DNA of 64,000 nt, taken from contig CM056742.1 in assembly GCA_029851415.1 (NCBI GenBank), positions 16,533,736 to 16,597,735 on the forward strand, given 5' to 3'. The first letter of the stretch is position 1; every line of letters starts with the position of its first letter. A program made the translations under genes and the position numbers. Source of the stretch: Eretmocerus hayati. Taxonomy: Eukaryota > Arthropoda > Insecta > Hymenoptera > Aphelinidae. Positions 5,801 to 59,431 of this stretch are shown here, in pieces. The notes under the pieces were generated by a model. The model had not been told where the DNA came from, ran no database searches, and was given only the letters and a program-made list of their open reading frames with translations.

Positions 5801-6668
5801 GGGTCAAGAGCCTCTCTGAAATAGAGATTACTTAGGATGTTGGCTTGTTCTGGATGATTACATCTATAAATAAATTGGCCAGGATACAGGGGCACACATG
5901 TGACATGTGTATACGAGTATATGCGTTTACAGATGATGTTACTGTTTTAAACTAGTAAGAGCACGTGGTGATTGCTGGTGCTGTATTCAATACTCATGAT
6001 GATGATGGAGTTTATTAGAGAGAATCTGTATTATATTTTGCAACCGCGCACTTGTTAGCCGCGTGCAACACACGACTCGTGCCTGGCATCATGTTTTTGA
6101 TTAATAGCTGATTATTACTCATATCGTATCATAAGATTTGGTACGCCTGCAGAATAATGTTCAAAAAATTGGAATATTTGTACAAATTATTGATGATTTT
6201 GTTTGCTTTTCTGGAAGGATTTTCGCTAACACCTTAGAAAAAAATCAGATGTTGAAATGGTATTATTACTCACAGTCTTACAATGGGTTTATATGTTCAT
6301 AGAATTTTGAAGAATTTTGTGAGGTTATATCCAAATCTTTGAAACTACTTAGATGTGCCCTTACTAGGGACTTTACTATGAGGTTGAACCTCCTTTTGCC
6401 AGTCGGATTGGCTTCTGAGAAGTAGAAAGTTTTGACAGGAAAAAAATCCAAGTTACATATTAGGATAAAATTATGAAATTGACGCCATTTTACTTTAATT
6501 AATCGTGATCGATTGCGACATGACTGACCAATCAGGAAAGTGTGATAACCGCGGCGGTAGATTCTCAATTTTATCCTCATAATCAGTATTTCAATCAGTG
6601 CGCACTCGTAATTCAATCGTAATACAAGCTTCAATCGAACCCTGTATCGCAGGGAATATATATGTATA

Positions 6669-7606
6669 GAGTAGGCGAAACTACCGCCATCGTATGCAAA
6701 AATAGCGTGATGAAAATGTTTTGTGGGATACTCACCGTAAGGCCTCCCTGATCCTAAAGACATATGCTCCTAAGCCGTATCTGGGTGCAAAATTGTTTAA
6801 ACCGAAATTGTTTAAACAATTTGATAAAATTGTTCATTTCGAATTGAAACCAATTTTACAAGGTGATTTGAAGCATTCTAAAGAAAAGTTACTCTTGTCA
6901 TTTTTTCTAAAAGCCATCATTTCCGAGCTACAAGTGTTTCAAAGTTGAAAAAACGCGAATTTTGCGATTTTGAACTTTAAATAAAGGTAACAACAAAGCG
7001 AGAAATCAATGTTCTCAATGTCGGGATCTGTTCACTACGGTGTCCTCTACGAGTTCCAATAGCAAATATCCATGGTCCCGACTTAGAACCTTCCGTTTTT
7101 CGGAAGTTTTCAATGCACTGTTTTCAACGGGTCTGAGATTGACTATATATATCGACCCGCGATGTATATAGTTATACTGGCGCCTGTAGAAACAGTGCTT
7201 TGAAAACTTCCGGAAAACGGAAGGTTCCAAGTCGGGACCATGGACATTTGCTATTGGAACTTGTAGAGGACACCCTTGTGAATAGATCCCGACATTGAGA
7301 ACATTGATTTCTCGCTTTGTTGTTACCTTTATTTAACGTTCAAAATCGCAAAATTCGCGTTTTTTCAATCTAAAAATGCCGACAGCTCAGAAACAATGGC
7401 TCCTAGAGAAATATGACAAGAGTAACTTTTTGTTTAGAATGCTCCAAATCACCTTGTAAAATTGGTTTCAATTTGAAATAAACAATTTTGCACCCAGATA
7501 CGGCTTAGGAACATATGTTAGGACCAGGGAGGTCTTACGGTGAGTATCCCACAAAAAATTTTCATCACGCTATTTTTGCACATGATGGCGGTAGTTTCGC
7601 CTACTC
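6669..7606. mobile_element. Palindromic non-autonomous DNA element, copy 1 (938 bp)
   Basis: The two halves are inverted copies of each other. The left end begins GAGTAGGCGAAACTACCGCC and the right end is its reverse complement. Homology continues inward through a TTTAAACAATT-type motif, a CGAGAAATC segment and the paired TTCCG/CGGAA segments, to a short centre near 7140-7175. TA lies immediately outside both ends (6667-6668 and 7607-7608), consistent with a Tc1/mariner-type TA target duplication. No coding capacity is visible; open frames running through it are by-products. A second copy is at 36155-37134, which shows that this is a dispersed family. It is a MITE or small foldback element, and the superfamily is inferred only from the TA. 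Confidence 0.85.
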
Positions 7607-10600
7607 TAATACAAATATAAGAAAGAAGGGGGTGCAAGATAATTCCATGTTTGATAACAGCTCTGCCAATATCAGTATACCAATACACAGCAAAGATAAA
7701 AGATATCAATAACGATTCTGAATCAGATTTCACGCTGCGTCATAATGTGTTGTGGAAAGACGCAATTCATTCAATCGTGCGACTCAACTTTGAAAAACCT
7801 CATTCCAATCCATCTCAATTTTAATCAATTCCAATTTTGAAGATCATGTCTTCAATCAGAGCTACAGCTTATGGAATAGAACAAAATTTTAAATCACGGA
7901 AATCAAACTCGAAATCAAAAGTTCACCCTGATGTCTGAACAATTAACATCGAAAGCGAAAATTTAGAAGATGAACGAGCAAAAAGAAGGCCGAGGAAGGA
8001 GTAAATAAAGATGAAAAAAAAAAGGAAGGAGGTGGCGATAGAAGCATATAGAGGATAAAAGTGAGCGAGTTGTTGTCGGGGTTATCGTCCAGAGAGCCGC
8101 AGAACAAGCAAACGCCAGATTCATTCTTGAGCATCAGTAGCATGCAATCGAGACTTTTCAAGCAACAACTAATATAAGAAGACCGGGAATGAATCCGAAA
8201 AAGACGCAAGCGGAGATCGGAAGCCGGTCAACGACTTACCAGAAGCTTCCTCTCTGCTCTTTCCTTTATGCATCTTTCGGTTTTAGCTTTCCATCTGTAG
8301 CCACTTAGATAAATAAACAAAAGAAATGAATTTGGCGCGCGGCAGGTGCACGACCGCAACGCTCGTCATAGTCTTCAACAAGTGTGAAAAATGACACAAA
8401 CAATGAATTTAAATGTGTGGAGAACAGTTTGGTGACTTTTGCGTTATAGTAGTGAAAGGAAGATGATGGAGAGGTTTGGTTGAGGTTAGAAGCCATGTGA
8501 TGAGGAAGTTAAGAATTCATGAGATGCTTTGGAAATCCATCGATGAGGTATCTGTAAAAGGTTCCTAAAAAGGAGCCTTTGGTAATTAAAGTGTTGGAGA
8601 ATGTAAGGCTTCGTTATTTTTCATCATGACTGAAGCTCGAAAATGTGAAGACTTGAAAAAGAGGAAAGCTTGAAGGGGTTCGCTAAAAAATTTCTAAAAG
8701 ATGTAAGGGATCTCAAAGTAGAGCTTCCATTAATTTTGCGTGAGACAAAGAGTGTCTGCTTCTGACGGAAGAAAGACAGGTGGTCAAAGTGACGCAAGAT
8801 TCAATCACTAGAAGTTTTGATGGACATGGCAAGATTCAGATTATTCAGAATGATGATAATCTGCGTTCAAGTAAAACAAGAACTTTTGAGATTGTTCAAA
8901 CACAAGGAATTGAGTAACTAAATGTACATTTTGAATGTACAAAGGCCATTTAATTTGATTCTGGTAGACATACATCAGCTGCTAACAGTGAGACTGAAGA
9001 AGAACTAACTCATTGGAAGTGATTTGAATTCGCAGTCAACGAGGTGTAAAACTAATCCATCCATTCACTTCTCTTTTAGATTGGATTTCTGATTTTGGTG
9101 AAAATTTTCCGATAGGCATGAAGATGATGAAAAGTGATCCAATTGAAGATCAACAGATCTGGAGTATTCTGAGAACGTGGGAATTCAAAAAGTCCCGTTT
9201 GTTCATCAGTGTCTATGATATGTGAAGCCTCTATGGGTGTTCATGTCCAGAAAAACTCTGAAGTGGCTCCATGGATCCAAAAACTACTCTGGTTACTGAA
9301 TAATGAGCACAATAATAAATATAATTATTCAAGGATACGATTGGACTAGTAAAGAGAAATCGCAGGTCAGGATACTTCATCAACTGTACCAATATTAATC
9401 ATATTACAAAAACTAGTGAGGAATGTTTCTGTGAGAAATGGCCAGGGTGAACAGAGAATTCTCAAGACAACGATCAATCCTACTTGAAGTTTTGCTTCTC
9501 ATTTTCATGAAGATGGCTCGAAGGATAGGTCAATTGCAAATGTTCCTCACAACAGTACAGCAATCATTCTGTTTGAGCATCTGAAATCCAAGCCAGGGAT
9601 GATCATGAATCATCTCGCAAAAGCAGCATTGTTCATCCGCATTCTTCACAACAATAACCCCAAAAATTTTCATTTCTCTTGAACACAGGCTTGACACAAA
9701 TCCTTTCTCTGATCATTCAACACCAAAATCTCAGAACAATGTAGAACTTATCTGACATGACTATCTAGCACTGAAAATTGAACTTCATCAATTCTGAATC
9801 TGTTTGAATGACAGAAAGGGAAATATAGCACCTTCTGAACATGTGAACCCAGTCTCACATACTTTGCATCCTGCAACCCATGCACCAAAAATCATCCTTG
9901 AGAAGCTTCAAACGACGACATCAGACACAGGAATCGAGTCTGCCGATTCCAGAATCGACATATACCCTCGTCTGACTGCACTTCATGTACAATGTACAAT
10001 GTCATGATAGCATGCTCTGACTCACAAGTTATATATCGATATACATATATATATGTATGCATCACCGGCTGGTATATTTGGGCAGTATGCACCCGACGAC
10101 CTCCATACAACACACACGCATCATATTAGGTGGCCAGTCTGCGTGCACCACTTTATATACCCATATACATATATGTGATTTTATATATATCTATATATAG
10201 TCAGTATAATGTATTGGTGGTGCAGCGGGTGCGAGTCGGACAGCTATGAAGAAGAAGAAGGGGAAGGAAGGGGAGCTCTCCGTTGCTGTCAACGACCTCG
10301 ACCTTCCACAAAGCTCGCGGCTTCTCTTGGGCTTCTCTCTGATGCTCTGAATGCTCTCAAGAGTGTATTACTGCAGCTGCTGCCCATGCAGGCTTTTTGA
10401 AGCGTAATGCTCCATGTAGCATCAGCGAAAATGCGCCCAATGCTATATCACCGAAAATCTCCCATGTTGGGTTGCTCTCGACTTTTCTTCTTTGATGAGA
10501 TCCTTTCCACTGTTCACTGCTGCTGAAGTATTCCTATGCTACCCCATGTAGTATTATAGGTTAGGATACATAAATGCGTAGTTCTGCTATATGTCGCCTT

Positions 10601-14007: not shown

Positions 14008-16875
14008 TCAAATTTTTTCTTGTTTCACTTTGATTTGACCCTGTAGGCGTTCCATTTCCACTAAATTAATCTTCCTTTCTACTTCTGCACACTTCGTTTT
14101 CAACGTTTCGAGCTTCAATTCTAATTGCTTTGCATTAGCCTTGCCTTCTGAAGTCTTCATTTCTGCTCTGACTGCTTTCATTTCAGCCATCAAATTTTTT
14201 TTCTCATTCTGTAATGCAGATTTTCTCTCCTTGCATGATCTATTAATGTTAGATTCTTTCTCCCTTATCAATTTGTTTTTCTCTCGCTTTTCTTTGTTCA
14301 TCTGAATCTGTTCTTCTCTCAATTTTTTTTCTTTCTCTCTAGTTTCAGCAATTTTCATCAATTCTCTACAGAAGTGAGCTGGTGGACAATTTTCAGCCTT
14401 AGAACCAGTTTTTTTCTTTAAAACTTTTTCAGGAATTTTGAAAATCTCCTGAAAAGCATTTTCTTTGACCACAGGATCAGTACGGCTATTTTCATCAGGT
14501 GTAATATCCTTGAGTGGCGGATAGTCAGGCATTCCATCGGGGCTATCATTGGATGATGCAGGGCTTAATTTTGTTGACAAATCCAAGACTTCTATTTCAT
14601 CATCAGAATGAATATTTACACTTGATTGAGCAACGACCAATGTATCACTCAAAGTTTGATTAGAGGGTGGATTCACTTCATGACTTTTATCCTCTGATCC
14701 AGGTGCAATCTCATGGTTGCGTACCGCAGTCTCTTGAGTGTCACTGAGAATTTGTGCAGAAGAATGAATAATTTCAGTGTCTTTCTGGGTAGGAGTATTT
14801 GTAACTGGATCAGCAGATGGAATCACAGATTCAACATACTGGATAAATTTGTCATCTGGGTGGAGTCTAGGTTCTTCACCCTCATTTTCAATATCCTTAA
14901 AATCAATCATCACAGTATCTTCTTCTTCAGGTACAGAAAGAAACACAATTTCAGACTGGGCTAATCCATTTGTGAATTCTACTTGAGTACTTATAATTGA
15001 ACTGCTTTTATCACAGAGCTCAATGCCACTATCATCATTCCCCTCTAGCGGGTGAGAAAAGTTTGTGGATTGTGAGTCAGAGCTTTCCCTACAATCCATT
15101 TGGAAAGACTGTTCCTCAGTCAATATATCATAATCTAATTGCTCAACTTCAATCAGTGAACCATCACAACCAGGTTCAACAGAAGGTTGGATCAGTTCTG
15201 ATGGATAGGATTCATGGGAAGCAGCATCACCATTGAGATCTCCAGAGTAATCACACATATTTTTTATTTTGCTCCAGCATTTGTGAGTGTACAGCAACTC
15301 TGAATCACCAGTCCAAGCATTTTGAGATCCATTTTCTAAAAATGAATTAAGAACATCTGGTTCGAGCACTTGGTTCTCAAAGAATTTCAGAAACTGCTCG
15401 ACAAAATTTTGTGACTTATCAGAGATCACAACTGAAGCATTAGTACCAAAATCTTCATGACTGGCTTCAGGTACTTCTGATGCATTCTCAGCAGACAAAC
15501 ACCTATCCTTTTTCTTCAGTTTATTCAATACATTATAGTTGACAGCCTCTTCATCGAATGGATGGAGTCCTGCAGCTCTAAATCCATTCACTATAATCTT
15601 CTTGAATTCTTCTTTGTTAGATTCCAATACTTTTGCAAGTACAGTGGCAACCATGTACTTTTTGAAATCTGTTTGTGGGTTATCAACTCTGAATTGCACT
15701 AGAGCAGACTTGTACAACTGTTTGAGTGGGCGGAAGAATGCAATATCGAGTGGTTGAAGTATGTGGGTACTGTTTGGATACAATGTGATTAATTCAATTC
15801 CCACATCATCACAAAACTTGAGAGTTTCATAAGCTATGTGTGATGAGTGGTTGTCTACGTAAAGCACAACAGGCAGTTCAATGTTTTGTTCCTTTAGCCA
15901 CTTGTAGAAAACATTCACAATGTAGGCATGAAAACTCTCAGCGGTCATCCAACCACCCTCTGATATACCTACACCCCAGTCAAGAGGAATCCATCTCAGA
16001 ACCTCTTTCTTGGGAATAGTTTTCAATTCAAATAATACTAATGGTGGAGGAAGTTCTCCACTAGCACTAGCTATGAATAAAACAGTGACGCATGTTTTTT
16101 CACCACCTGGTACAATAGTATATACAGCCTTACTACCTTTCTGTGCTATTACATGCTCTGCTTTTGGAACCAAGACGAATGATGATTCATCCAAATTGAA
16201 TTTTCTTTGAGCTGGAATGCTCAGAAGTTTTTTCTCCATTAAATACCCTCGAACCTTGGCAAACCACTCTCTCAGATCTTTCTCAGATACTGAAGCTCTC
16301 GATACTGACAAATTTTGAGCAATTCTTGAACAGAGATTGGGGTGCCTCTTCATGAATGCACTGTACCATACCTTGCCTGGACGACCATCCTTGAAAGGAG
16401 TATTTTTTCTTGTATCATTGACTAATTTTTGGATGCAGTCTAGTAACCTTTCTTTGGTTACCGGAAAACCCCTATGCTGGCATTTTAGTAACCAATTCAC
16501 GACATCATCTTCTTCTTGAGAACTTAGTACTGTTTGGGGCCCTTTTTTACAGTTTAGAGGATGTATACCTTTCATTTTAGCATAGAGCGTACTTTTTGGG
16601 ATATTAAATCTGAGCTGAGCATCTCTCAACGACAGACCATCCTTACACATAGCATTGAGTGCTTCTTGTACTTGATCTGATGTGTATGCATGAGTGGGCT
16701 TCTTCTTTGATTTCTTAACTTGTTTTGGCATCTCATTTTTATTATGAAATGGGTGCTGACCAGTATGCTTTGCACTCTTGCGCTTTGAATTCACTGAATT
16801 GTTTTTAGTCTTACTAATTTTTGCCATCTTGTGAGTAAATTTGATACAACTCCTGAAAATATGCATAACTATCAT
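14008..16875 (-). CDS. Tigger/pogo-family transposase with long C-terminal extension
   Basis: The product should bind the element ends and cut and paste the transposon in the nucleus. In the 955-residue frame, residues about 60-105 form a Psq-type helix-turn-helix (SLRDAQLRFNIPKSTLYAK). Residues about 110-185 form a CENP-B-type DNA-binding domain. A DDE endonuclease core follows, with D229 (NLDESS), D341 (YVDNHSSH) and D377 (LQPLD), a DD35D-like spacing. After the catalytic core (to about residue 450) comes a long acidic, Ser-rich tail, a VLDLSTK motif at 763-769, and a Lys/Glu-rich predicted coiled coil at about 840-955. Known Tigger transposases are usually near 500-650 residues, so this is long. 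The true start is probably Met17 (position 16827), because the sequence just upstream resembles a splice acceptor. There are no internal stops. A domesticated gene is unlikely given the intact terminal repeats. Confidence 0.9.
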   Translation of the reverse strand: MIVMHIFRSCIKFTHKMAKISKTKNNSVNSKRKSAKHTGQHPFHNKNEMPKQVKKSKKKPTHAYTSDQVQEALNAMCKDGLSLRDAQLRFNIPKSTLYAKMKGIHPLNCKKGPQTVLSSQEEDDVVNWLLKCQHRGFPVTKERLLDCIQKLVNDTRKNTPFKDGRPGKVWYSAFMKRHPNLCSRIAQNLSVSRASVSEKDLREWFAKVRGYLMEKKLLSIPAQRKFNLDESSFVLVPKAEHVIAQKGSKAVYTIVPGGEKTCVTVLFIASASGELPPPLVLFELKTIPKKEVLRWIPLDWGVGISEGGWMTAESFHAYIVNVFYKWLKEQNIELPVVLYVDNHSSHIAYETLKFCDDVGIELITLYPNSTHILQPLDIAFFRPLKQLYKSALVQFRVDNPQTDFKKYMVATVLAKVLESNKEEFKKIIVNGFRAAGLHPFDEEAVNYNVLNKLKKKDRCLSAENASEVPEASHEDFGTNASVVISDKSQNFVEQFLKFFENQVLEPDVLNSFLENGSQNAWTGDSELLYTHKCWSKIKNMCDYSGDLNGDAASHESYPSELIQPSVEPGCDGSLIEVEQLDYDILTEEQSFQMDCRESSDSQSTNFSHPLEGNDDSGIELCDKSSSIISTQVEFTNGLAQSEIVFLSVPEEEDTVMIDFKDIENEGEEPRLHPDDKFIQYVESVIPSADPVTNTPTQKDTEIIHSSAQILSDTQETAVRNHEIAPGSEDKSHEVNPPSNQTLSDTLVVAQSSVNIHSDDEIEVLDLSTKLSPASSNDSPDGMPDYPPLKDITPDENSRTDPVVKENAFQEIFKIPEKVLKKKTGSKAENCPPAHFCRELMKIAETREKEKKLREEQIQMNKEKREKNKLIREKESNINRSCKERKSALQNEKKNLMAEMKAVRAEMKTSEGKANAKQLELKLETLKTKCAEVERKINLVEMERLQGQIKVKQEKI

Positions 16876-17920: not shown

Positions 17921-17929
17921 CCGTGTTCA
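17921..17929 (+). repeat. Left 9-bp target-site duplication (CCGTGTTCA)
   Basis: Direct copy of 26748-26756, immediately outside the 84-bp terminal inverted repeats of the giant element. Nine base pairs is the usual duplication length for Mutator-like transposition. Confidence 0.75.
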
Positions 17930-18011
17930 ATGAAGCTCAAGTTAGCCGACGGACTTAGCCGCAGATAGCCGGCGACCTGGGGCAAAATGATACACCATGA
18001 AATTTCGTTTC

Positions 18012-21000
18012 CCTGGGAGTGTCCTCTCTCGAGAGTGGAGTCAAATGAGAGGTTATGATTCAGACTACCTATACTGTGAGTGTGATCGAGCAACATTAGG
18101 GCTAACATGGTAACCTAACCTCAAAACCACCGCCGAAGTCGGATTTCGCTAATGGAACGCCCGATATCTCGTCTTCCTGGGAGTGTCCTCTCTTGAGAGT
18201 GGAGTCAAATGAAAGGTTATGATTCAGACTACCTATACTGTGAGTGTCATCGACCAACATTAGGGCTAACATGGTAACATAACCTCAAAACCACGGCAAA
18301 AGTCGGATTTCGCTCATCAAAAGCCCGATATCTCGTCTTCCTGGGAGTGTCCTCTCTCGAGAGTAGAGTCAAATGAAAGGTTATGATTCAGACTACCTAT
18401 ACTGTGAGTGTGATCGACCAACATTAGGGCCAACATGGTAACCTAACCTCAAAACCACGGTGGAAGTCGGATTTCGCTAGTCGAAAGCCCGATATCTCGT
18501 CCTCCTGTGAGTGTCCTCTCTCGAGAGTAGAGTCAAATGAGAGGTTATGGTCCAGACTACGTATACCGTGAGTGTGATCGACCTACATTAGGGCTAACAT
18601 GGTAACCTAACCTCAAAACCACCGTGGAAGTCGGATTTCGCTCATGTAAAGCCCGATATTTCGTCTTCCTGGGGGTGTCCTCTCTTGAGAGTGGAGTCAA
18701 ATGGAAGGTTATAATTCAGACTACCTATACTGTGAGTGTCATCGACCAACATTAGGGCTAACATGGTAACCTAACCTCAAAACCACGGCAAAAGTCGGAT
18801 TTCGCTTATGGAAAGCCCGATATCTCGTCTTCCTGGGAGTGTCCTCTCTTGAGAGAGGAGTCAAATGAAAGGTTATGATTCAGACTACCTATGCTGTGAG
18901 TGTTATCGACCAACATTAGGGCTAACATGGTAACCTAACCTCAAAACCACGACGGAAGTCGGATTTCGCTCATGGGAAGCCCGATATTTCGTCTTTCTGG
19001 GAGTGTCCTCTCTTGAGAGTGGAGTCAAATGAAAGGTTATGATTCAGACTACCTATACTGTGAGTGTTATCGACCAACATTAGGGCTAACATGGTAACCT
19101 AACCTCAAAACCACGGCAAATTCGGATTTCGCTCATCAAAAGCCCGATATCTCGTCTTCCTGGGGGTGTCCTCTCTTGAGAGTGGAGTCAAATGGAAGGT
19201 TATAATTCAGACTACCTATATTGTGAGTGTCATCGACCAACATTAGGGCTAACATGGTAACCTAACCTCAAAACCACGGCAAAAGTCGGATTTCGCTTAT
19301 GGAAAGCCCGATATCTCGTCTTCCTGGGAGTGTCCTCTCTTGAGAGTGGAGTCAAATGGAAGGTTATAATTCAGACTACCTATACTGTGAGTGTCATCGA
19401 CCAACATTAGGGCTAACATGGTAACCTAACCTCAAAACCACGGCAAAAGTCGGATTTCGCTTATGGAAAGCCCGATATCTCGACTTCCTGGGAGTGTCCT
19501 CTCTTGAGAGAGGAGTCAAATGAAAGGTTATGATTCAGACTACCTATACTGTGAGTGTTATCGACCAACATTAGGGCTAACATGGTAACCTAACCTCAAA
19601 ACCACGGCAAATTCGGATTTCGCTCATCAAAAGCCCGATATCTCGTCTTCCTGTGAGTGTCCTCTCTCGAGAGTGGAGTCAAATGAGAGGTTATGGTCCA
19701 GACTACGTATACCGTGAGGGTGGTCGACCTCCATTAGGGCTAACATGGTAACCTAACCTCAAAACCATCGTGGAAGTCGGATTTCGCTAGTCGAAAGCCC
19801 GATATCTCGTCTTCCTGTGAGTGTCCTCTCTCGAGAGTGGAGTCAAATGAAAGGTTATGATTCAGACTACGTATACCGTGAGTGCGATCGACCAACATTA
19901 GGGCTAACATGGTAACCTAACCTCAATACCACGACAGAAGTCAGATTTCGCTCATGTAAAGCCCGATATTTCGTCTTCCTGGGGGTGTCCTCTCTTGAGA
20001 GTGGAGTCAAATGGAAGGTTATAATTCAGACTACCTATATTGTGAGTGTCATCGACCAACATTAGGGCTAACATGGTAACCTAACCTCAAAACCACGGCA
20101 AAAGTCGGATTTCGCTTATGGAAAGCCCGATATCTCGTCTTCCTGGGAGTGTCCTCTCTTGAGAGTGGAGTCAAATGGAAGGTTATAATTCAGACTACCT
20201 ATACTGTGAGTGTCATCGACCAACATTAGGGCTAACATGGTAACCTAACCTCAAAACCACGGCAAAAGTCGGATTTCGCTTATGGAAAGCCCGATATCTC
20301 GACTTCCTGGAAGTGTCCTCTCTTGAGAGAGGAGTCAAATGAAAGGTTATGATTCAGACTACCTATACTGTGAGTGTTATCGACCAACATTAGGGCTAAC
20401 ATGGTAACCTAACCTCAAAACCACGGCAAATTCGGATTTCGCTCATCAAAAGCCCGATATCTCGTCTTCCTGTGAGTGTCCTCTCTCGAGAGTGGAGTCA
20501 AATGAGAGGTTATGGTCCAGACTACGTATACCGTGAGGGTGGTCGACCTCCATTAGGGCTAACATGGTAACCTAACCTCAAAACCATCGTGGAAGTCGGA
20601 ATTCGCTAGTCGAAAGCCCGATATCTCGTCTTCCTGTGAGTGTCCTCTCTCGAGAGTGGAGTCAAATGAGAGGTTATGGTCCAGACTACGTATACCGTGA
20701 GTGTGATCGACCTACATTAGGGCTAACATGCTAACCTAACCTCAAAAGCACGGTGGAAGTCGGATTTCGCTAGTCGAAAGCCCGATATCTCGTCTTCCTG
20801 TGAGTGTCCTCTCTCGAGAGTAGAGTCAAATGACAGGTTATGGTCCAGACTACGTATACCGTGAGTGTGATCGACCTACATTAGGGCTAACATGGTAACC
20901 TAACCTCAAAACCACCGTGGAAGTCGGATTTCGCTAGTCGAAAGCCCGATATCTCGTCTTCCTGTGAGTGTACTCTCTCGAGAGTGGAGTCAAATGAGAG

Positions 21001-22606
21001 GTTATGGTCCAGACTACGTATACCGTGAGTGCGATCGACCAACATTAGGGCTAACATGGTAACCTAACCTCAATACCACGACAGAAGTCAGATTTCGCTC
21101 ATGGAACGCCCGATATCTCGTCTTTCTGGGAGTGTCCTCTCTCGAGAGTGGAGTCAAATGAATGGTTATGAGTCAGACTACCTATACTGTGAGTGTGATC
21201 GACCAACATTAGGGCCAACATGGTAACCTAACCTCAAAACCACGGTGGAAGTCGGATTTCGCTAGTCGAAAGCCCGATATCTCGTCTTCCTGTGAGTGTC
21301 CTCTCTCGAGAGTAGAGTCAAATGACAGGTTATGGTCCAGACTACGTATACCGTGAGTGTGATCGACCTACATTAGGGCTAACATGGTAACCTAACCTCA
21401 AAACCACCGTGGAAGTCGGATTTCGCTAGTCGAAAGCCCGATATCTCGTCTTCCTGTGAGTGTACTCTCTCGAGAGTAGAGTCAAATGAGAGGTTATGGT
21501 CCAGACTACGTATACCGTGAGTGCGATCGACCAACATTAGGGCTAACATGGTAACCTAACCTCAATACCACGACAGAAGTCAGATTTCGCTCATGTAAAG
21601 CCCGATATTTCGTCTTCCTGGGGGTGTCCTCTCTTGAGAGTGGAGTCAAATGAAAGGTTATCATTCAGACTACTTATACTGTGAGTGTCATCGACCAACA
21701 TTAGGGCTAACATGGTAACCTAACCTCAAAACCACGGCAAAAGTCGGATTTCGCTTATGGAAAGCCCGATATCTCGTCTTCCTGGGAGTGTCCTCTCTTG
21801 AGAGTGGAGTCAAATGGAAGGTTATAATTCAGACTACCTATACTGTGAGTGTCATCGACCAACATTAGGGCTAACATGGTAACCTAACCTCAAAACCACG
21901 GCAAAAGTCGGATTTCGCTTATGGAAAGCCCGATATCTCGACTTCCTGGGAGTGTCCTCTCTTGAGAGTGGAGTCAAATGAAAGGTTATCATTCAGACTA
22001 CTTATACTGTGAGTGTCATCGACCAACATTAGGGCTAACATGGTAACCTAACCTCAAAACCACGGCAAAAGTCGGATTTCGCTTATGGAAAGCCCGATAT
22101 CTCGTCTGCCTGGGAGTGTCCTCTCTTGAGAGAGGAGTCAAATGAAAGGTTATGATTCAGACTACCTATACTGTGAGTGTTATCGACCAACATTAGGGCT
22201 AACATGGTAACCTAACCTCAAAACCACGTCAAAAGTCGGATTTCGCACATCAAAAGCCCGATATCTCGTCTTCCTGTTAGTGTCCTCTCTCGAGAGTGGA
22301 GTCAAATGAGAGGTTATGGTCCAGACTACGTATACCGTGAGGGTGATCGACCTACATTAGGGCTAACATGGTAACCTAACCTCAAAACCACGGCGGAAGT
22401 CGGATTTCGCTCGTGGAAAGCCCGATATCTCGTCTTCCTGGGGGTGTCCTCTCTTGAGAGTGGAGTCAAATGAAAGGTCATGATCCAGACTACCTATACT
22501 GTGAGTGTGATCGACCAAGATTAGGGATAACATGGTAACCTAACCTCAAAACCACGACGGAAGTCAGATTTCGCTCATGAAACTCCCGATATCTTGTCTT
22601 CCTGTG
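18012..22606 (+). repeat. 164-bp tandem array, left arm, about 28 copies
   Basis: The landmark CCTGGGAGTGTCC (or CCTGTGAGTGTCC) recurs at 18012, 18176, 18340, 18504 and so on to 22601, a constant 164-bp spacing. Each monomer contains a CTCTCGAGAG palindrome (often CTCTTGAGAG), the segment CATTAGGGCTAACATGG, AACCTAACCTCAAAACC and CCCGATATCTCG. Several monomer subtypes are interspersed. One variant (CGTGAGGGTGGTCGACC) recurs about 820 bp apart (19712 and 20531), indicating a five-monomer higher-order unit. No protein-coding frame persists across monomers. The array forms the left arm of the giant foldback element. Confidence 0.95.
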
Positions 22607-22990
22607 AGCCCCGGGGATAGGCGCGACAACTATGCGCTTGTCAAGACTATATCCTAATATGCACTTAGTACATATGTGAGCATCAGATTAGCAGAATATA
22701 CAAAGTTAACTACTTGAGCCAAATAATGCCCACGAGATCGTGTGAATTTTTCATCATTCTCGAAGGCCGTTCAGCCTCTCGAACTTCGTTCATCTTTGGT
22801 CTCAGGATATAGAGTCTGGAAGGATCTTCTCCATGTCATAATTCGGCACAAGCGTCGGACGCAGAATCTCAAGGAAAGATGCCGCGAATAGGTTTACATG
22901 TGTATTGATCGGACTTCAGCTCGTCACATGGAAATTGGGAGTTGCGATGAATGATAATGATCTTTTATTGGTTTTTGTTGAGCCAAAAAT
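22607..22990. other. Single-copy spacer between the two left-arm arrays
   Basis: About 380 bp with no tandem structure, beginning GCCCCGGGGATAGGCGCGAC. The right arm has no equivalent: there the 77-bp and 164-bp arrays are separated by only about 30-40 bp (about 25165-25200). It may be a remnant of internal element sequence or a later insertion. No coding frame is recognised. Confidence 0.6.
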
Positions 22991-23490
22991 TCTGTCGGGG
23001 GAACAATCCACGCCACAACCTAGGAAGGCAAACTAACTCGCAAGTGCCCGGTGCTCGGAACGAGAATTTTTTGGGGGAGAAATCAACTCCAAAACCCAGG
23101 AAGGCAAACTAACCCGCAAGTGCCCGAATGCTCGGACCGAAATATTTTCGGGGGAGAAATCAACCCCAAAACCCAGGAAGGAAAACTAACCCGCAAGTGC
23201 CCGGATGCTCGAACTGAAATTCTCATGGGGGAGAAATTAACCCCAGAACCTAGGAAGGCAAATTAATCCCCAAGTGCCCGGATGCTCGGACCGAAATTCG
23301 TTTGGGGGAGAAATCAACCCCAAAATCCAGGATGGCAAACTAACCCGCAAGTGCCCGGATGCTAGAACCGAAATTCTCATGGGGGAGAAATTAACCCCAG
23401 AACCCAAAAAGGCAAAGTAAGTGCCCGGATGCTCGGACTGAAAATCTTGTGGGGGTGGAATCATTCCCAGAACCCGAGAAAGCAACCACA
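22991..23490 (+). repeat. 77-bp tandem array, left copy, about 6 monomers
   Basis: The landmark CAAGTGCCCGG recurs at 23041, 23117, 23194, 23271, 23348 and about 23418, a period of 76-77 bp. Monomers contain GGAAGGCAAACTAACCCG, ATGCTCGGACCGAAATT and GGGGGAGAAATCAACCCC. The period is not a multiple of three, so the open frames crossing it differ from monomer to monomer and are not proteins. It is inverted relative to the array at 23995-25165. Confidence 0.92.
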
Positions 23491-23995
23491 CGCGCCTGCT
23501 GGAAATAATTCCGTGGTTAATCGCAAGGACCCCTGGGGCTTGATCCTGGGGAAAATTCCGATCTTAATATTCTGCCAAATTGGGCATCAAAGACGTGCTG
23601 CATACAAATTTCGACCATTATCTTTCCAGTCCATGAGGTGGGTGACGAGTCGGAAAACGAGTTCTCTCTATTTTGCTCTCTAGGAGCTTCGAGTGGAATT
23701 TCGCTCGGATACTTTTAGAGAGCAAATATCAAGAAAGCATACAAACCCCAAAATACCTGGATGCTCGGTTCAAAAAATTTCTCGTGCGAAGAATCATTCC
23801 CCAAACCTTTGGTCCGAGCATCCAGGTATTTGCGGGTTTCGTTGCAATCGTGGGTTTTGGAAATTATTCCCTTCACGAGAAAATCTCTGCTCCAAGCATC
23901 CAGGTATTTACAGGTTTGACTGCCTTCCAAATTGTTAGGAATGATTTTTCAACGACTGATTTTTGTCGAAACATCCAGGCATGGGCGGGTTAACT
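23490..23995. other. Core of the giant foldback element
   Basis: Spacer between the inverted 77-bp arrays. The part at about 23500-23640 (ATTCCGTGG, GGGCATCAAAGACGTG, GCATACAAATTTCGACC) resembles the short palindrome at 54450-54705. The part at about 23740-23925 is a small repeat cluster around CATCCAGGTATTT and its inverse. No coding frame is recognised. Confidence 0.7.
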
Positions 23996-25165
23996 TGCCT
24001 TCCTAGGTTCTGGGGTTGATTCCTCCCTCAAAAAATTTGGGTCCGAGCATCCGGTCACTTACTTTGCCTTTTTGGGTTCTGGGGTTAATTTCTCCCCCAT
24101 GAGAATTTCGGTTCGAGCATCCGGGCACTTGCGGGTTAGTTTGCCTTCCTGGGTTTTGGGGTTGATATCTCCCCCGGAAAGATTTTGGTCCGAGCATCCG
24201 GGCTCTTGTGGGTTAGTTTGCCTTCTTGGGTTTTGGGGTTGATTCCTCCCCCAAAAGAATTTCGGTCCGAGCAACCGGGCACTTGGGGAATAGTTTGCTT
24301 TCCTGGGATTTGGGGTTGATTTCTTCTCCAAACGAATTTCGGTCCGAGCATCCGGGCACTTGGGGATTAATTGGCCTTCCTAGGTTCTGGGGTTAATTTA
24401 TCCCCCATGAGAATTTCGGTTCGAGCATCCGGGCACTTGCGGGTTAGTTTTCCTTCCTGGGTTTTGGGGTTGATTTCCCCCCGAAGAGATTTCGGTCCGA
24501 GCATCCAGGCTCTTGTGGGTTAGTTTGGCTTCTTGGGTTTTGGGGTTGATTCCTCCCCCAAAAGAATTTCGTTCCGAGCATCCGGGCACTTGGGGATTAG
24601 TTTGCCTTCCTGGGATTTGGGGTTGATTCCTTCTCCAAACGAATTTCGGTCCGAGCACCCGGGCACTTGGGGATTAATTAGCCTTCCTAGGTTCTGGGGT
24701 TAATTTATCCCCCATGAGAATTTCGGTTCGAGCATCCGGGCACTTGCGGGTTAGTTTTCCTTCCTGGGTTTTGGGGTTGATTTCCCCCCGAAGAGATTTC
24801 GTTCCGAGCATCCAGGCTCTTGTGGGTTAGTTTGGCTTCTTGGGTTTTGGGGTTGATTCCTCCCCCAAAAGAATTTCGGTACGAGCATCCGGGCACTTGG
24901 GGATTAGTTTGCCTTCCTGGGATTTGGGGTTGATTCCTTCTCCAAACGAATTTCGGTCCGAGCACCCGGGCACTTGGGGATTAATTTGCCTTCCTAGGTT
25001 TTGGGGTTGATTTCTCCCCCAAAAAAATGTCGGTCCGAGCATCCGGGCACTTGCGGGTTAGTTTGCCTTCCTAGGTTTCGGGGTGATGACTGTTCCCCAG
25101 ACAGAATCATTTGCCAGAGCACCTTGGCATTTGCGGGTTAATTTGCCTTCCCAGGTTTCGTCGTG
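23995..25165 (-). repeat. 77-bp tandem array, right copy, about 15 monomers
   Basis: Inverted counterpart of the array at 22991-23490. GAGCATCCGGGCACTTG-type landmarks recur at about 24045, 24115, 24193, 24269, 24346, 24425, 24500, 24577, 24654, 24732, 24807, 24885, 24961, 25038 and 25115. A four-monomer block (about 307 bp) beginning near 24346 is duplicated almost exactly from 24654, showing local higher-order amplification. Confidence 0.93.
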
Positions 25166-25199
25166 AGAATCCCGCGTTGACGCAACTTGAAGATATTAT

Positions 25200-26664
25200 C
25201 GTAATCTTTCATAAGCGAAATCCGACTTACATCGTGGTTTTAAGGTCAGGCTACCATGTTAGCCCTAATGTTGGTCGATGACACTCACAGTATAGGTGGT
25301 CTGAATCATCACCTTTCATTTGACTCTACTCTCGAGAGAGGACACTCCCAGGAAGACGAAATATCGGGCTTCCCATGAGCAAAATCCGACTTTTGCCGTG
25401 GTTTTGAGGTTAGGTTACCATGTTAGCCCTAATGTTGGTCGATGACACTCACGGTATACGTAGTCTGGACTATAACCTGTTATTTGACTCGACTCTCAAG
25501 AGAGGACACCCCCAGGAAGACGAAATATCGGGCTTTACATGAGCGAAATCTGACTTCTGTCGTGGTATTGAGGTTAGGTTACCATGTTAGCCCTAATGTT
25601 GGTCGATCGCACTCACGGTATACGTAGTCTGGACCATAACCTCTCATTTGACTCCACTCTCAAGAGAGGACACCCCCAGGAAGACGAAATATCGGGCTTT
25701 ACATGAGCGAAATCTGACTTCTGTCGTGGTATTGAGGTTAGGTTACCATGTTAGCCCTAATGTTGGTCGATCGCACTCACGGTATACGTAGTCTGGACCA
25801 TAACCTCTCATTTGACTCCACTCTCGAGAGAGGACACTCACAGGAAGACGAGATATCGGGCTTTCGACTAGCGAAATCCGACTTCCTTGGTGGTTTTGAG
25901 GTTAGGTTACCATGTTAGCCCTAATGTAGGTCGATCACATTCACGGTATACGTAGTCTGGACCATAACCTCTCATTTGACTCCACTCTCGAGAGAGGACA
26001 CTCACAGGAAGACGAGATATCGGGCTTTCGACTAGCGAAATCCGACTTCCACCGTGATTTTGAGGTTAGGTTACCATGTTGGCCCTAATGTTGGTCGATC
26101 ACACTCACAGTATAGGTAGTCTGACTCATAACCTTTCATTTGACTCTACTCTCGAGAGAGGACACTCCCAGGAAGACGAGATATCGGGCTTTTGATGAGC
26201 GAAATCCGACTTTTGCCGTGGTTTTGAGGTTATGTTACCATGTTAGCCCTAATGTTGGTCGATGACACTCACAGTATAGGTAGTCTGAATCATAACCTTT
26301 CATTTGACTCTACTCTCGAGAGAGGACACTCCCAGGAAGACGAGATATCGGGCTTTTGATGAGCGAAATCCGACTTTTGCCGTGGTTTTGAGGTTATGTT
26401 ACCATGTTAGCCCTAATGTTGGTCGATGACACTCACAGTATAGGTAGTCTGAATCATAACCTTTCATTTGACTCCACTCTCAAGAGAGGACACTCCCAGG
26501 AAGACGAGATATCGGGCGTTCCATTAGCGAAATCCGACTTCCGCGGTGGTTTTGAGGTTAGGTTACCATGTTATCCCTAATCTTGCTCGATCACACTCAC
26601 AGTATAGGTAGTCTGAATCATAACCTCTCATTTGACTCCACTCTCGAGAGAGGACACTCCCAGG
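25200..26664 (-). repeat. 164-bp tandem array, right arm, about 9 copies
   Basis: Reverse-orientation copies of the left-arm monomer. GGACACTCCCAGG or its variants end at 25352, 25516 and so on to 26664, exactly eight periods of 164 bp. It includes the same variant subtypes as the left arm, for example the form with GTGGTATTGAGG and GATCGCACTCACGG. The first monomer is truncated near 25200. Confidence 0.94.
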
Positions 26665-26747
26665 GAAACGAAATTTCATGGTGTATCATTTTGCCCCAGG
26701 TCGCCGGCTATCCGTCGGCTAAGTCTGTCGGCTAACTTCAGCTTCAT

Positions 26748-26756
26748 CCGTGTTCA
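26748..26756 (+). repeat. Right 9-bp target-site duplication (CCGTGTTCA)
   Basis: Direct repeat of 17921-17929 at the outer right boundary of the giant element. The match is exact over nine bases. Confidence 0.75.
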
Positions 26757-35770: not shown

Positions 35771-36154
35771 CGACGTGGGCTTTCCATATTTTTACTCACA
35801 CAATCCAGCAAGCTTGCAAAAGCCCCGGTCATAATGAATAAGCCTTGCCACAATCGCTAAGAAAAGAGACCGGGCATATACGAGTTTCACGCGCTCATAC
35901 CACTTTCCAACCGAGAGTTGCTTACACTTCGGGGCCGTTATCATAAGGCACATTTCCCCTTCCTTAACACCTTCGCCTAGCTAGGTGCATCACCTTTAAG
36001 CTTCAACTTTTCCATCTATATCTAATAATCTGACTTTTCCTTCATTTTCTGGAAGTAGGTATAGGTTAGGTTGCATGAAGTGCGCATTTGAGGATGTAGA
36101 TTTCCCTTTCCTCTGTAAGGCAAATGAAACACGAGTCTCAGATACATGTTTATA

Positions 36155-37134
36155 GACTAGGCGAAACTACCGCCATCGTTTGCAAAAATAGGTGAGTGGA
36201 ATTTTTTTGTGGGATCCTCTCCGGAAGACCCTCCTGATCATAGAGACGTATGGACCCAAGCCGAATTCCGATGCAACATTGTTTAAACCGAAATTGTTTA
36301 AACAATTGACAAAAATCACTTATTTCGTCCTGAAACTAATTTTATAAGGTAATTTGGGATATTTTGGATTGAAAAGTATTCTTGTCATTTTTCCCTAGGA
36401 GCCATCATTTCCGAGCTATAAGCGTTTCAAAGTTGAAAAAACGCGAATTTTGCGATTTTGAACGTTAAATAAAGGTAACAACAAAGCGAGAAATCGATGT
36501 TCTCAAGGTCGGGATCTATTCACCAGGGTGTCTTCTACAGGTTCCAATAGCAAAAGTCCATGGTCCCGGCTCAGAACCTTCCGATTTCCGGAAGTTTTCA
36601 ATGCACTGTTTTGAAGGGATCTGAGATTGACTATATATATCGGTCTGCGATGTATATAGCTATACTGGCGCCTGTAGAAACAGTGCTTTGAAAACTTCCG
36701 GAAAACGGAAGGTTCTGAGCCGGGACCATGGACTTTTGCTATTGGAACCTGTAGAAGACACCCTGGTGAATAGATCCCGACCTTGAGAACATCGATTTCT
36801 CGCTTTGTTGTTACCTTTATTTAACGTTCAAAATCGCAAAATTCGCGTTTTTTCAACTTTGAAACGCTTATAGCTCGGAAATGATGGCTCCTAGGGAAAA
36901 ATGACAAGAATACTTTTCAATCCAAAATATCCCAAATTACCTTATAAAATTAGTTTCAGGACGAAATAAGTGATTTTTGTCAATTGTTTAAACAATTTCG
37001 GTTTAAACAATGTTGCATCGGAATTCGGCTTGGGTCCATACGTCTCTATGATCAGGAGGGTCTTCCGGAGAGGATCCCACAAAAAAATTCCACTCACCTA
37101 TTTTTGCAAACGATGGCGGTAGTTTCGCCTAGTC
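36155..37134. mobile_element. Palindromic non-autonomous DNA element, copy 2 (980 bp)
   Basis: Second member of the family at 6669-7606. The ends begin GACTAGGCGAAACTACCGCC and are inverted at the right end, with TA immediately outside (36153-36154 and 37135-37136). The arms are nearly identical to each other: CCGGAAGACCCTCCTGATCA, GTTTAAACCGAAATTGTTTA and AACGCGAATTTTGCGATTTT each recur inverted. This suggests a younger or better-homogenised copy than copy 1. The centre is near 36640-36670. No coding potential is visible. If transcribed it would form a hairpin with arms of about 470 bp. Confidence 0.88.
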
Positions 37135-37136
37135 TA

Positions 37137-39713
37137 TTAGTTGTTTTCTGCGTACTTTATCATAAAACTACACGTGCGTGACTCGTTGTTCTTCTCTTCT
37201 CGAGGTGAGGCACATGCACGCGCACTAGACTAACTATATTATAAAGTATAGATACGCTGAGATAAGTAGGTATACCTATCCGATGCAAACTCATACGATA
37301 TATTAACATATAATTCAAGTTTGGTGACGCAACGAGAAACTCTGATGCTGACGATGCTTGATGTAGATTTCATAAGTACACGAAGAAGAAGTATACATGA
37401 ACTATAAGGATGTTGGAGGCTGTAGAACGAGGAAGGGGAAATATAATGTAAGTATAAGTACCTAGAGGTGTGGATAGGTGAGCCACGTGTGCGAGGAAAA
37501 TCTATTAGTTTGGCATGAGTCGAGTGACGACATATATCAATCACTTTTTGGCTGAGTCTCATAGGTTACCGATTTGTAATCACGGAACTTGCATCATTAA
37601 AAAATTTTTGAAATAAGAAGTAATTGTTCGACGAATTCGAACGTTTTATAATAAGAAGTAAGGTAATTTTTTCTAGATGTGTCGTAACTATAAGAAATTT
37701 GAAGCAGAGTTTAATAATTATTGAAGCAGAAGGAGGAGAAAGATAAGCCGGGTTATCGTAACATGAACGTGCCAATCACGTCGTCGTCGTCTCAAATTAT
37801 AACAATAACGTTGTCTTCGTATACGATTTATACCAAATATGATGATATGACCAACAATGATATTTAACACTACAGATAGCAATTACCAAAATAAGCTCAA
37901 CTATCTCATAGCAATCGTTTAACCACTAGTTCTTATTTTTTATACACAGCAAGGTAATAAATCGTGAATCTTTATGAAGTTGAAACAGAAATTGAATTCA
38001 CAGTGACGTCGAATAAGATATCATTCAAGTTTCGTAATAACTCACTAGCTAACTAAGTAAACACCCGTATAGATACATTTATAGGTTAAGAAATCTTTAG
38101 TTTTCTAGTTAACTTGAACACGGTGATGATGATTATGATGTGATACAGTCAAAGATTTGGGTCACGATTATTCATTATCAGACGATTTCATCGCTCTTTT
38201 CTCGAAAGTGGCAATTAAAACACCAAAGAAGCCAGAGCGCTCATCCAAATTGACGCTCACATAAAATCGTTCGATCCCCTCCATACTTATGAAGTTTAGA
38301 TTATAATAAAACGCATCTTGAATTCAATGACGAATATAGTAAAGAATAAAAGAAGACAAGAAAAGCTACGAGTTTTCTTTGTTCTGGGGTTATGCATGTA
38401 TATTCCAGGCTGCATCGTGATCATGATGTAGGCTGTGTAACAAGTGTGTAGAACGTATGCATTCCGTTCGATATATCTAAAATTCAAAATGATGAAACAA
38501 CGTATATCGAGTGAAACAACCTTGCAGCTTTCCATCCATTATACACTTCATTTTCTCAACATATCTATATAACGTATTTCGACTCATCATCATCGTCATC
38601 ACAAGGAGATGTATGATGATGAACTTTTGCTGAATTGCGTAATTTTTTCCATACTAGTATTACCATAGAATCTACCAATCAACATCTATAATCTTTCAGT
38701 TAGAAAAAAATAATCAATCCATGAGATGGTTAGAAAAGAGCAATATGTACGGGGATATTAGAAACAGCGTGAGCGATGCGATTGCTCAATGTCACGGATA
38801 TATAATACATAAAGAAGAAGAACGAATCATGCCAGGGTTGGCACACGTCACGGTTTGGCTACTTTGAAAAAAAAAAAAAAAAAAAAAATACTAATTCCAC
38901 GCCCCGACCACATGCATGAATTTCAAAGAATACAAAGCACGTGCGAAACCCCCCTACACTTTTTTTCCACGGAAATAACGTTCGAATTAACCTACAAATA
39001 AATAAAATACAAGTAAACAAATATACCAAAGACCGAGTTCCTTGTATTATATAGCAAAATGGCTCGAGAAGGAGAGGGAGTTAGTCGAAGCTGGCGTGAC
39101 TTCTCCCCACGTATATACCTACCTACCTCTCGATGCGCAATAGAGACTGTCTACCTTTTGTCCGCTGCTATATATATGCTTCATGATAGAACACACTCAC
39201 TCTCGAGGAAGCTTTTCATACATCAGACTACCTAATACTATTTACTTACGAGGTTAAATAATAATAACATAAAATGTGTTACCTAGGACTGATGATGACT
39301 GTAGATATGAATTCTCGGCGTGGCCGGGCTCAATATGTCATGATATGTCAGCTGACTTGACGTACTATCTCAATGTTGGCCTCGGGCGAGCTAACCGCGC
39401 CAGTATCCCACATAATTGGCCACCGCCTTAGTATAAACTTCTTTTTTTCTTGCCCTGGCGATGTATTAGATCGCACCACTAGCTGCTGGCAACAGATTAT
39501 ATACCTATCCCAAGTATATAATATAATTTCTTGTCTCGTTCCCTGTGTTATTGAGGCACGAACACAAATTTTTTTTTTGCACTCGCGCACCCGCACAGAA
39601 TAAACAGACAGATACAGATAGACACCTGGACGACTTCTACTAGGATAAATTATTTATGTCGGAATTAGTATTATATATCTGTAGGATACTTTGTGTGCCA
39701 GGTCTCTATGATA
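37137..39713. other. Non-coding region, no gene recognised
   Basis: AT-rich, with a poly-A run (38867-38888) and short microsatellites. Overlapping frames on both strands at about 39348-39603 are not convincing as genes. Confidence 0.5.
38867..38888. repeat. Poly-A tract
   Basis: Run of 22 A residues. No retroposon body or duplication is recognised around it. Confidence 0.85.
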
Positions 39714-49950: not shown

Positions 49951-49969
49951 CCCTGGTGGAAAAAACAGC

Positions 49970-50110
49970 GTAGTACTGCAGTAGTCTACTGTCTGGCTGA
50001 TCGTACTACTGTAGTAGCTTACTGTCGTACTACTGCAGTAGCCTACTGCAGTAGTACGACCGTAGTCTACTACAGTACTACTGAGCGTACTACTGTCGTA
50101 CTACTGGATA
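49970..50110 (+). repeat. CTACTG/CAGTAG-rich minisatellite-like block
   Basis: Irregularly repeated TACTGCAGTAG, GTCTACTG and GTACTACTG elements, each partly palindromic. The mirror block is at 51733-51875. It forms the outer part of the palindrome arms and could fold on its own into local hairpins. Confidence 0.8.
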
Positions 50111-50587
50111 ATAGTACTGAGCTGGATTTCGCTGCTGTGTTTACTTTCTGCCCTTGAGAGGATAGAGGCAAAGAGAAAAAATTATAAAAGGGTGAGATCT
50201 CTAGATGAGTTTAGGCTCACTCATGAGGAGCACCTTCGTAAAAGACTTGTGCGCTACTTTTTCAAAATGCTTCAAACCCATAACATAACATAACCTTCAC
50301 ACGCCGAGCGCGCGCCCGCTCTCCCCGCAAACTCACACAGCAGAAGACAAGAGTCGAACTGTCGCGGCCGTACTCATCGTTTTGTTTTGATATGTCGAAG
50401 CAACAATTTATCGTCTTATGTTGATACATTCTGTCGGATTCTGCCATTTGAGTATCAACGATAGGCTATGGATAACAAAGCCGGTTGTTATTCATGCCGA
50501 TAAACAACAAAAATGAGGCCCAGATCACGAGCCCCTCGTGGGGGCTCGACGCTTATAAGTAACATTTGAGCACAAATTGTGATAGTG

Positions 50588-50660
50588 AGAATTATAGCGC
50601 AAGTGGCAACGGGTCCGCCTCGCACGCGGGAGGCTCGGGATCGCTTCCCGGAAACGAATA
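50588..50660 (+). repeat. tRNA-derived (SINE-head-like) segment, left arm
   Basis: Contains a good internal promoter A box (TAGCGCAAGTGG, 50595-50606) and a B-box-like sequence (GGATCGCTTCC, 50638-50648; two differences from the GGTTCGANTCC consensus) at tRNA-like spacing. An anticodon-arm-like stem CCGC/GCGG encloses CTCGCAC, and a T-stem-like TCGGG/CCCGG encloses ATCGCTT. The acceptor stem does not pair, so this is not a functional tRNA. A T-rich tract follows. It may be a tRNA pseudogene or SINE head captured by the palindrome. Confidence 0.45.
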
Positions 50661-51187
50661 TTTTTTTCTTTTTTTCCCGATTCTGTTTTTGTTTTGCTTT
50701 ACGCAGACTTGCACTTTTTTCCTCGGTATCGAAAATGTATTCAATCCTAATTTTATTCATTTACAATGTAATTCAAATTTTGACATTCAAGTTTTAATAA
50801 TCTATATGATTGAATTTCGAAAATATAACCGCTACAGCATATTTTCTAATTCAGTCATGAATTGATGAGTTACATTTTTTTTGATTCATTTGGATTGAAT
50901 AAATCCAATCTGCATTTATGAAATATTATTCAAAAGTAGAAAGTAATTAGTTAATTAATTTAAATATAATATTTGAAGATGTACAAATAGCCCGTTAATT
51001 TTTCATTGGATTGAAAAATATGCTGTAGCGGTGCCTATATTTATCTCAAAACTTGAATGTCAAAATTTGAATTACATATATAAATGAATAAAATTAGGAT
51101 GAATACATATTAGATACCGAGGAAAAAAGTACAAGTCTGCGTAAAGCAAAACAAAAACAGAATCGGGAAAAAAAGAAAAAAAAATAT

Positions 51188-51257
51188 TCGTTTCCGGGAA
51201 GCGATCCCGAGCCTCCCGCGTCCGAGGCGGACCCGTTGCCACTTGCGCTCATTCTCA
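51188..51257 (-). repeat. tRNA-derived segment, right arm
   Basis: Inverted copy of 50588-50660. The B-box-like sequence is at 51197-51207 (reverse strand). The A box at 51239-51250 has lost its first T, and the anticodon-loop position differs by one base. The copies have therefore begun to diverge. Confidence 0.45.
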
Positions 51258-59189: not shown

Positions 59190-59431
59190 TGTTTTGTATT
59201 CAATTTGTATGTCAAACTGAACTTGACCATACACATGGACAAACTATTTCCTTTGGTTCAAGTAAGTAACCTTTTATTAGATACTTTTGTGAAAAATCAG
59301 TGCTTTAAGTTGAATTTTAAACCCAAAGGACTCCAAATGAAGTTGCAGTGATCCATGTGTATAATTGGTGAGCCCTGCACAAGAATTGATGTAGATAGTA
59401 TTGAGTATTAATTGAGAGTACTTCTATAAAT

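Follow-up and report, generated by a model that had tools for sequence, protein, structure and literature searches.

Foldback transposons have long been known, and they raise questions about the transposase that moves many of them, the origin of their arms and their relation to satellites. The Foldback (FB) and FB-NOF elements of Drosophila have inverted arms of tandem repeats with units of about 31 bp, a 9-bp duplication and a separate class of coding copies, and Galileo has a 7-bp duplication and a THAP transposase. The tandem repeats in the foldback arms of Galileo, a member of the P superfamily, are described as holding extra transposase binding sites, and in Tetris of Drosophila virilis the unit TIR-220 lies between outer and inner domains, with 8-10-bp duplications and a link to satellite DNA (PMC4079207). 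The Mutator/Foldback element Tm1 of root-knot nematodes has tandem units in varying number, a 9-bp duplication, and coding and non-coding classes (PMC3169594). For Rehavkus, one paper lists a PHD finger in its Table 1 and gives 9-bp duplications (PMC6446971). In Tribolium castaneum, the 164-bp satellite TCsat23 forms the inverted termini of the 9.5-kb element Rehavkus-1_TC, and its arrays are short, mostly of five and eight monomers (PMC10218199). An element comparable to these is described here from the tiny parasitic wasp Eretmocerus hayati, at positions 17930-26747 of a stretch of 64,000 nucleotides (the window; assembly GCA_029851415.1, contig CM056742.1, positions 16,533,736 to 16,597,735 of the forward strand).

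The element is interpreted, with a probability of roughly 85%, as a non-autonomous deletion derivative of a Foldback/Mutator-like transposon that would be moved by a transposase in trans, the candidate being a transposase fused to an Ulp1-type protease. A scrap from the 3' side of the gene is retained beside one of its 77-bp arrays, and non-autonomous is the best reading.

Structure of the element

Tandem arrays were called with Tandem Repeats Finder. The features of the element, which is 8.8 kb in size, are given below in window coordinates.

17921..17929, no strand: left 9-bp target site duplication CCGTGTTCA, read from the sequence
17930..18004, plus strand: left terminal inverted repeat, which begins ATGAAGCT and precedes the first 164-bp unit, from the end alignment
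18005..22608, plus strand: left outer array, 164-bp unit x 28.1, 91% matches, from Tandem Repeats Finder
22605..22919, minus strand: remnant of the transposase gene 3' region, matching C4:21371399-21371714 at 90% over 316 bp
22987..23475, minus strand: left inner array, 77-bp unit x 6.5, in the orientation opposite to the right array, from Tandem Repeats Finder
23496..23722, no strand: core, with weak matches of 69-73% to window 54460-54693 in both orientations
23791..25158, plus strand: right inner array, 77-bp unit (Tandem Repeats Finder 24059-25084, x 13.4; a 307-bp period was also called)
25206..26671, minus strand: right outer array, 164-bp unit x 8.9, from Tandem Repeats Finder
26672..26747, minus strand: right terminal inverted repeat, from the end alignment
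26748..26756, no strand: right copy of the 9-bp target site duplication CCGTGTTCA, read from the sequence

The foldback layout that an earlier note had described from the letters of the window was borne out, with matching ends, a 9-bp duplication, inverted 164-bp arrays on the outside, inverted 77-bp arrays on the inside and a small core. The terminal sequence of the element is the ATGAAGCTGAAG end. Its left and right ends are identical at 81 of 85 aligned columns (3 mismatches, 1 gap), and end-to-end identity extends inward over 483 of 491 columns. A 9-bp match at a given spot has a chance of about 4^-9, and the flanks of the window element are not mirrored. The palindrome claimed in the same note holds for the inverted arms but is imperfect in its symmetry, the 164-bp array measuring 4.6 kb on the left and 1.5 kb on the right. 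The arms do consist of arrays, but the description of them as almost wholly tandem repeats is qualified by a 378-bp non-array block (22609-22986) found in the left arm only.

No reading frame of at least 120 amino acids (aa) was present inside the element, and the transposase protein described below gave no match to it (tblastn, E up to 10). The core had no match in the 58 fetched loci; since it resembles the piece at 54460-54693, about 31 kb away, in both orientations, it may be a scattered small repeat. A common origin of the 164- and 77-bp units was considered and rejected, as no significant homology was obtained (an equally high score was reached by 26 of 300 shuffles), in agreement with the earlier view that the two monomers are unrelated.

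Other copies in the genome

The 84-bp end was shared by other genomic copies, with seven matches at five loci including the window. Both ends were matched in the window and at C3:104.56 Mb (C3a), and one end was matched at each of C4:71.34 Mb, C3:106.78 Mb (C3b) and C3:57.31 Mb (C3c). A boundary common to the five non-window ends was found at the four loci concerned; three of these ends match from the first base, and at C3a-left and C3c the BLAST match begins at base 3, the first bases being AC and AG instead of AT. The flanks are unlike between loci, except at C3a, whose two flanks match each other.

At C3a the nested plan is repeated, with 164-bp arrays outside and 77-bp arrays inside, at about 72% identity to the window element. 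At C4:71.34 Mb the end is accompanied by left 164-bp arrays and by 77-bp arrays in both orientations, interrupted by other DNA, and no right 164-bp arm was present in the 39 kb read. C3c has 164-bp arrays only, in its 39 kb. Because the whole plan is found again at a second locus, with about 72% identity, the nesting of the two monomers is, on this comparison, an inherited trait of the family, and the earlier proposal of nesting is upheld (by C3a, and in part by C4:71.34 Mb).

Used as a genome query, the 164-bp pair gave 128 matches at 15 loci (25 of 26 candidates scored). Seven of the 15 loci were two-armed among the matches listed, all in the order plus then minus and none reversed, and the 84-bp end gave no match at ten of the 15. 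The further suggestion that a transposon seeds satellite DNA was not shown for the window family, in which the longest run found (73.5 copies) lies inside an element.

The mirror symmetry of C3a reaches at least 250 bp beyond the ends, with 240 of 253 flank bases in agreement. When the flank was used as a query, only the C3a pair covered the full length bar 2 bases, among the best 40 of 918 candidates, and two parts of the query were found to be scattered repeats. The most likely account of this symmetry is an inverted duplication that followed insertion. In the mirrored region (L008 3837-10000 and L009) the flank is repeat DNA with a presumably gag-like reading and with GGAT arrays.

The two arms of C3a differ by gaps, of which the biggest is 492 bp, exactly 3 x 164, and three others are of 18-40 bp. 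The outermost monomers of the window element pair across its arms (R1 with L1, 98.8%; R2 with L2, 99.4%), R5 to R7 are closest to L18 and L22, and R8 is closest to L2 (94.5%). Mean monomer identity is similar within and between arms (0.913, 0.905 and 0.911). The copy numbers, together with the one gap of 3 x 164 bp, suggest that array lengths would shift in whole-monomer steps, by way of unequal exchange or of conversion.

Two further candidates were rejected. A copy at C2:153.99 Mb, considered as a second test of the target duplication, had no end recognisable by eye in the two fetched flanks. Open reading frames (ORFs) inside C3c, considered as a coding partner, lie between inverted pieces 98.9% alike in what is apparently a separate 7-kb element. 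At L015 1212-8585, 7.4 kb with nested inverted repeats lie between 446-bp inverted pieces that are 98.9% alike, and a 570-aa protein there has no Pfam match at E 0.001.

Coding relative and candidate transposase

A longer copy with the same terminus, which the earlier note proposed to look for as a carrier of a Mutator-like element (MULE) transposase, was identified at C3b; it encodes a transposase-like protein, and a match to a MULE profile was not obtained. The terminal end stands at the right of C3b, and 164-bp arrays flank the locus on both sides, with 4.6 and 73.5 copies on the left, parted by 10 kb of other DNA, and 24.6 copies on the right. The ORF encodes 977 aa and has a C-terminal Peptidase_C48 domain (E 1.4e-7). 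Comparison of this protein with the genome gave at least 56 matches (47 of 72 candidates scored), several of them in long open frames. QAD02_003567 is a related protein of E. hayati, and a protein search with P0001 as the sole query returned only P0001 itself. Beyond E. hayati, related proteins include one of Diatraea saccharalis (27% identity over 91% of the query) and one of 1733 aa with PHD, Ulp1, UCH and Macro domains.

A six-protein alignment was prepared from long E. hayati proteins, hand-picked from 30 loci, and P0001. The residues D130, D205, H243, H248, C250, H253 and E428 were kept in all six. In a wider alignment of seven rows, with fragments included and counts taken over rows having a letter at the position, conservation was 7/7 for D130, 6/6 for D205, 5/5 each for H248, C250 and E428, 4/5 for H253 and 3/5 for H243. 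The core is thus of the DDE kind, with a C..H motif placed after the second D and before the E, and this D-D-C..H-E arrangement we take to be the pattern of Mutator-like transposases. The positions HW, DS, P.Q and CG.H, presumably the catalytic ones of the Ulp1 protease, are kept in the four proteins with a full C-terminus, and a part rich in C and H is present in the three proteins that reach far enough toward the N-terminus. The candidate transposase would accordingly have a zinc-binding-like N-terminus, followed by the D-D-C..H-E core, and would end in an Ulp1-type protease.

Link to the transposase gene and proposed mechanism

The 378-bp block of the left arm derives from the transposase gene region. 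The stretch that it matches at C4:21371399-21371714 starts 57 bp past the final codon matched in a transposase relic, and window 22605-22919 also aligns with C3b (68% over 237 columns) about 0.4 kb 3' of the C3b ORF. At C4:21.37 Mb no 164-bp array was present in the 1.1 kb fetched beyond the matching stretch, and at C3b about 2.9 kb of other DNA separates the remnant-like stretch from the array. On this evidence the direct junction with the array in the window is a separate rearrangement.

In the proposed mechanism, the element would have been cut and pasted into the window site by a transposase supplied in trans, most likely from the paralogue group whose gene lies inside a larger element sharing the same end. 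Deletion would have removed the coding region and left the scrap from just 3' of the gene, with the inverted pair of 77-bp arrays occupying the middle. The 164-bp arms probably provide many transposase binding or spacing sites.

Sister families and arm-unit length

Among the 30 loci around transposase matches, seven (at six places) had a tandem array of at least 100 bp; none of that length was present at the other 23 within the stretch fetched. At C1:184.78 Mb an unrelated 164-bp array stands on both sides of an Ulp1 ORF, inverted and up to 97% alike. In a family with a 1213-aa protein, a 163-bp array lies on the 3' side of the gene. A third, with a 1171-aa protein, has a 178-bp array and four copies that are 99.8% alike where aligned, two of them with the whole frame; 178-bp arm pairs enclose the transposase frame in three copies, the frame measuring 1171 aa in two of them and 732 + 455 aa in the other. 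At L033 3257-4344 (C3:136.18 Mb) a frame of the 1171-aa family is shortened and runs into the 178-bp array, a possible step from a coding to a non-coding copy.

Among the matches listed, two-armed loci with none reversed numbered 16 of 24 for the 164B family and 16 of 20 for the 178 family; for 164A, 164B and 178 together, inverted arms in the order plus then minus were found at 39 of 59 loci and never in reverse. Homology among the 164A, 164B, 163 and 178 monomers was rejected, the observed scores being reached by 44 to 295 of 300 shuffles. One genome sequenced with HiFi reads thus shows several families, with ORF-bearing copies and likely non-coding derivatives, and holds four unrelated arm-type monomers of near-equal length (164, 164, 163 and 178 bp).

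It is tentatively suggested, as a rather unlikely explanation of these lengths, that selection keeps the length and not the sequence of the arm unit, each paralogue group having its own unrelated array; the 164-bp unit of Rehavkus-1_TC in Tribolium is close to the same length. The four units were chosen after the fact, so that the near-equality is a lead and not a result; other units also limit it, with arrays of 103, 153 and 142 bp near relics and the inner unit of the window element at 77 bp. If the suggestion were true, a fixed unit length would be in keeping with a constant pitch of the transpososome or of nucleosome phasing, and the lineage would keep producing new satellites of a set period. 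Families standing side by side make selection on arm-unit length as against sequence directly testable.

Longer arrays of such units were also observed. The 163-bp unit has many one-strand matches along at least about 47 kb at C4:42.033-42.080 Mb, among the matches listed, and this region may be a free satellite built of a transposon-linked unit. A 142-bp satellite of about 102 copies covers about 15 kb at C4:71.356-71.371 Mb (L016 5184 to L017 10000), and its unit also adjoins a transposase relative in L052.

Alternative explanations

Several observations weigh against a derivative moved in trans by the candidate transposase. The 9-bp duplication, claimed in the earlier note, was found in the window copy, which is the one testable case (1/1); three of the other loci have a single recognised end, and C3a has no target duplication and has mirrored flanks instead, its symmetry passing the ends. 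No left end was recognised at C3b. Within the core, H243 is variable and one relative has R at H253. No Pfam MULE profile was matched (P0001 at E up to 10, seven other proteins at E up to 1), a negative limited by the HMMER filters, which discard most weak matches, and the MULE-like reading is drawn from the residue pattern. The coding relatives read have no 77-bp array of the window type, and the only kin of the 77-bp unit near them is a related 103-bp unit near the C4:93.15 Mb relic.

The palindrome could instead have arisen by inverted duplication of a satellite array, with no transposition. The relative C3a, symmetric well past its ends, fits such an event; the window element, with unmirrored flanks and a 9-bp duplication placed at the boundary common to other loci, does not, and for it this origin is very improbable. 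That an ordinary dispersed satellite was captured by a transposon by chance is quite improbable as well. Eight of the 15 loci of the 164-bp type are one-sided among the matches listed, and the 84-bp end was not matched at six of these eight (C1:74.01 and C3:50.25 Mb among them) or at four two-armed loci, all of which would agree with capture. Against capture, three unrelated array families stand as plus then minus arms at 39 of 59 loci with none reversed, among the matches listed, and a transposase frame is enclosed in three 178-bp arm pairs. A collapsed or mirrored repeat in the assembly is hardly credible. Long tandem arrays are difficult to assemble, but the element is 8.8 kb with unequal arms, and the assembly (692,130,109 bp) was made with hifiasm from PacBio HiFi data at about 693x (PMC10482854). 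This depth and the recurrence of the same plan in an independent copy at about 72% identity make an artefact unlikely.

The remaining question is one of classification; the earlier note had found the element to fit Foldback and Rehavkus-type Mutator-like elements. Its reading as a transposable foldback element stands: it has long inverted arms of tandem repeats, a duplication of about 9 bp in the window copy and dispersed copies sharing its ends, and the 9 bp also lie in the 8-11-bp range of Mutator-like duplications. The 9-bp duplication and the satellite in the inverted termini speak for a true Rehavkus element as Repbase defines it, as do the equal length of TCsat23 (PMC10218199) and a related protein, P0007, which combines a similar core with a PHD finger and an Ulp1 domain. 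Against this, the PHD finger that Table 1 lists for Rehavkus (PMC6446971) was found in none of the ten proteins scanned (P0001, L034, L038, L040, L041, L043, L044, L045, P0002 and P0005), whose upstream exons are incompletely resolved. Rehavkus identity is accordingly possible and somewhat doubtful, and the broader description as a Foldback/Mutator-like derivative is preferred.

Other features of the window

A smaller foldback-like element was observed at 49951-51893, with 293-bp ends differing at 2 mismatches and minisatellite-like arms of 11, 13 and 24 bp rich in CTACTGCAGTAG. A 955-aa frame at 14008-16875 (minus strand), near the main element, has HTH_psq, HTH_Tnp_Tc5 and DDE_1 domains and is a pogo/Tc5-like transposase gene. 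A 561-aa uridine kinase plus UPRTase is encoded at 59405-61090 (plus strand) in a single uninterrupted frame. Repeats of about 1 kb at 6656-7611 and 36142-37139 match in direct (82%) and inverted (79%) orientation, so that the copies are near-palindromic.

Comparison with known systems

The window element and its relatives resemble FB and FB-NOF in their arms, duplication and coding class, and differ in having units of 164 and 77 bp, not about 31 bp. Galileo shares the foldback arms of tandem repeats and differs in its 7-bp duplication and its THAP transposase. The 2026 arthropod MULE survey lists E. hayati among species with complete copies, and for its three hymenopteran species gives transposase lengths of 334-475 aa and element sizes of 2.2-4.1 kb; as these sizes are smaller, the larger E. 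hayati elements seem to be absent from the survey, as far as its listed values go (PMC13359780). In the literature searched, no paper joins NOF, foldback, Ulp1 and transposon.

The kind of foldback described here is already known, as Rehavkus-1_TC, Tetris and Tm1 illustrate. Tm1 is similar in its composite inverted repeats, 9-bp duplication, and coding and non-coding classes, and differs in its 13-15-bp unit and asymmetric 7-bp end motifs (PMC3169594). Tetris likewise has foldback arms with a tandem unit and a duplication of similar size; its description gives a single monomer family, of about 220 bp, and a transposase was not found for it, whereas the E. hayati element has two nested families and a transposase candidate (PMC4079207). 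A likeness is also seen to Rehavkus-1_TC, whose 164-bp arm satellite fits the E. hayati arm pattern: both have inverted termini of a 164-bp tandem unit, the monomers being compared by length only (PMC10218199), and Rehavkus duplications are likewise of 9 bp (PMC6446971). The E. hayati element is unlike it in the inner 77-bp array, in the Ulp1 fusion of its relatives and in the PHD finger, which was not found. New with respect to the literature found are the nested pair of families, the candidate Ulp1-fused transposase and the presence side by side of families with near-equal unit length.

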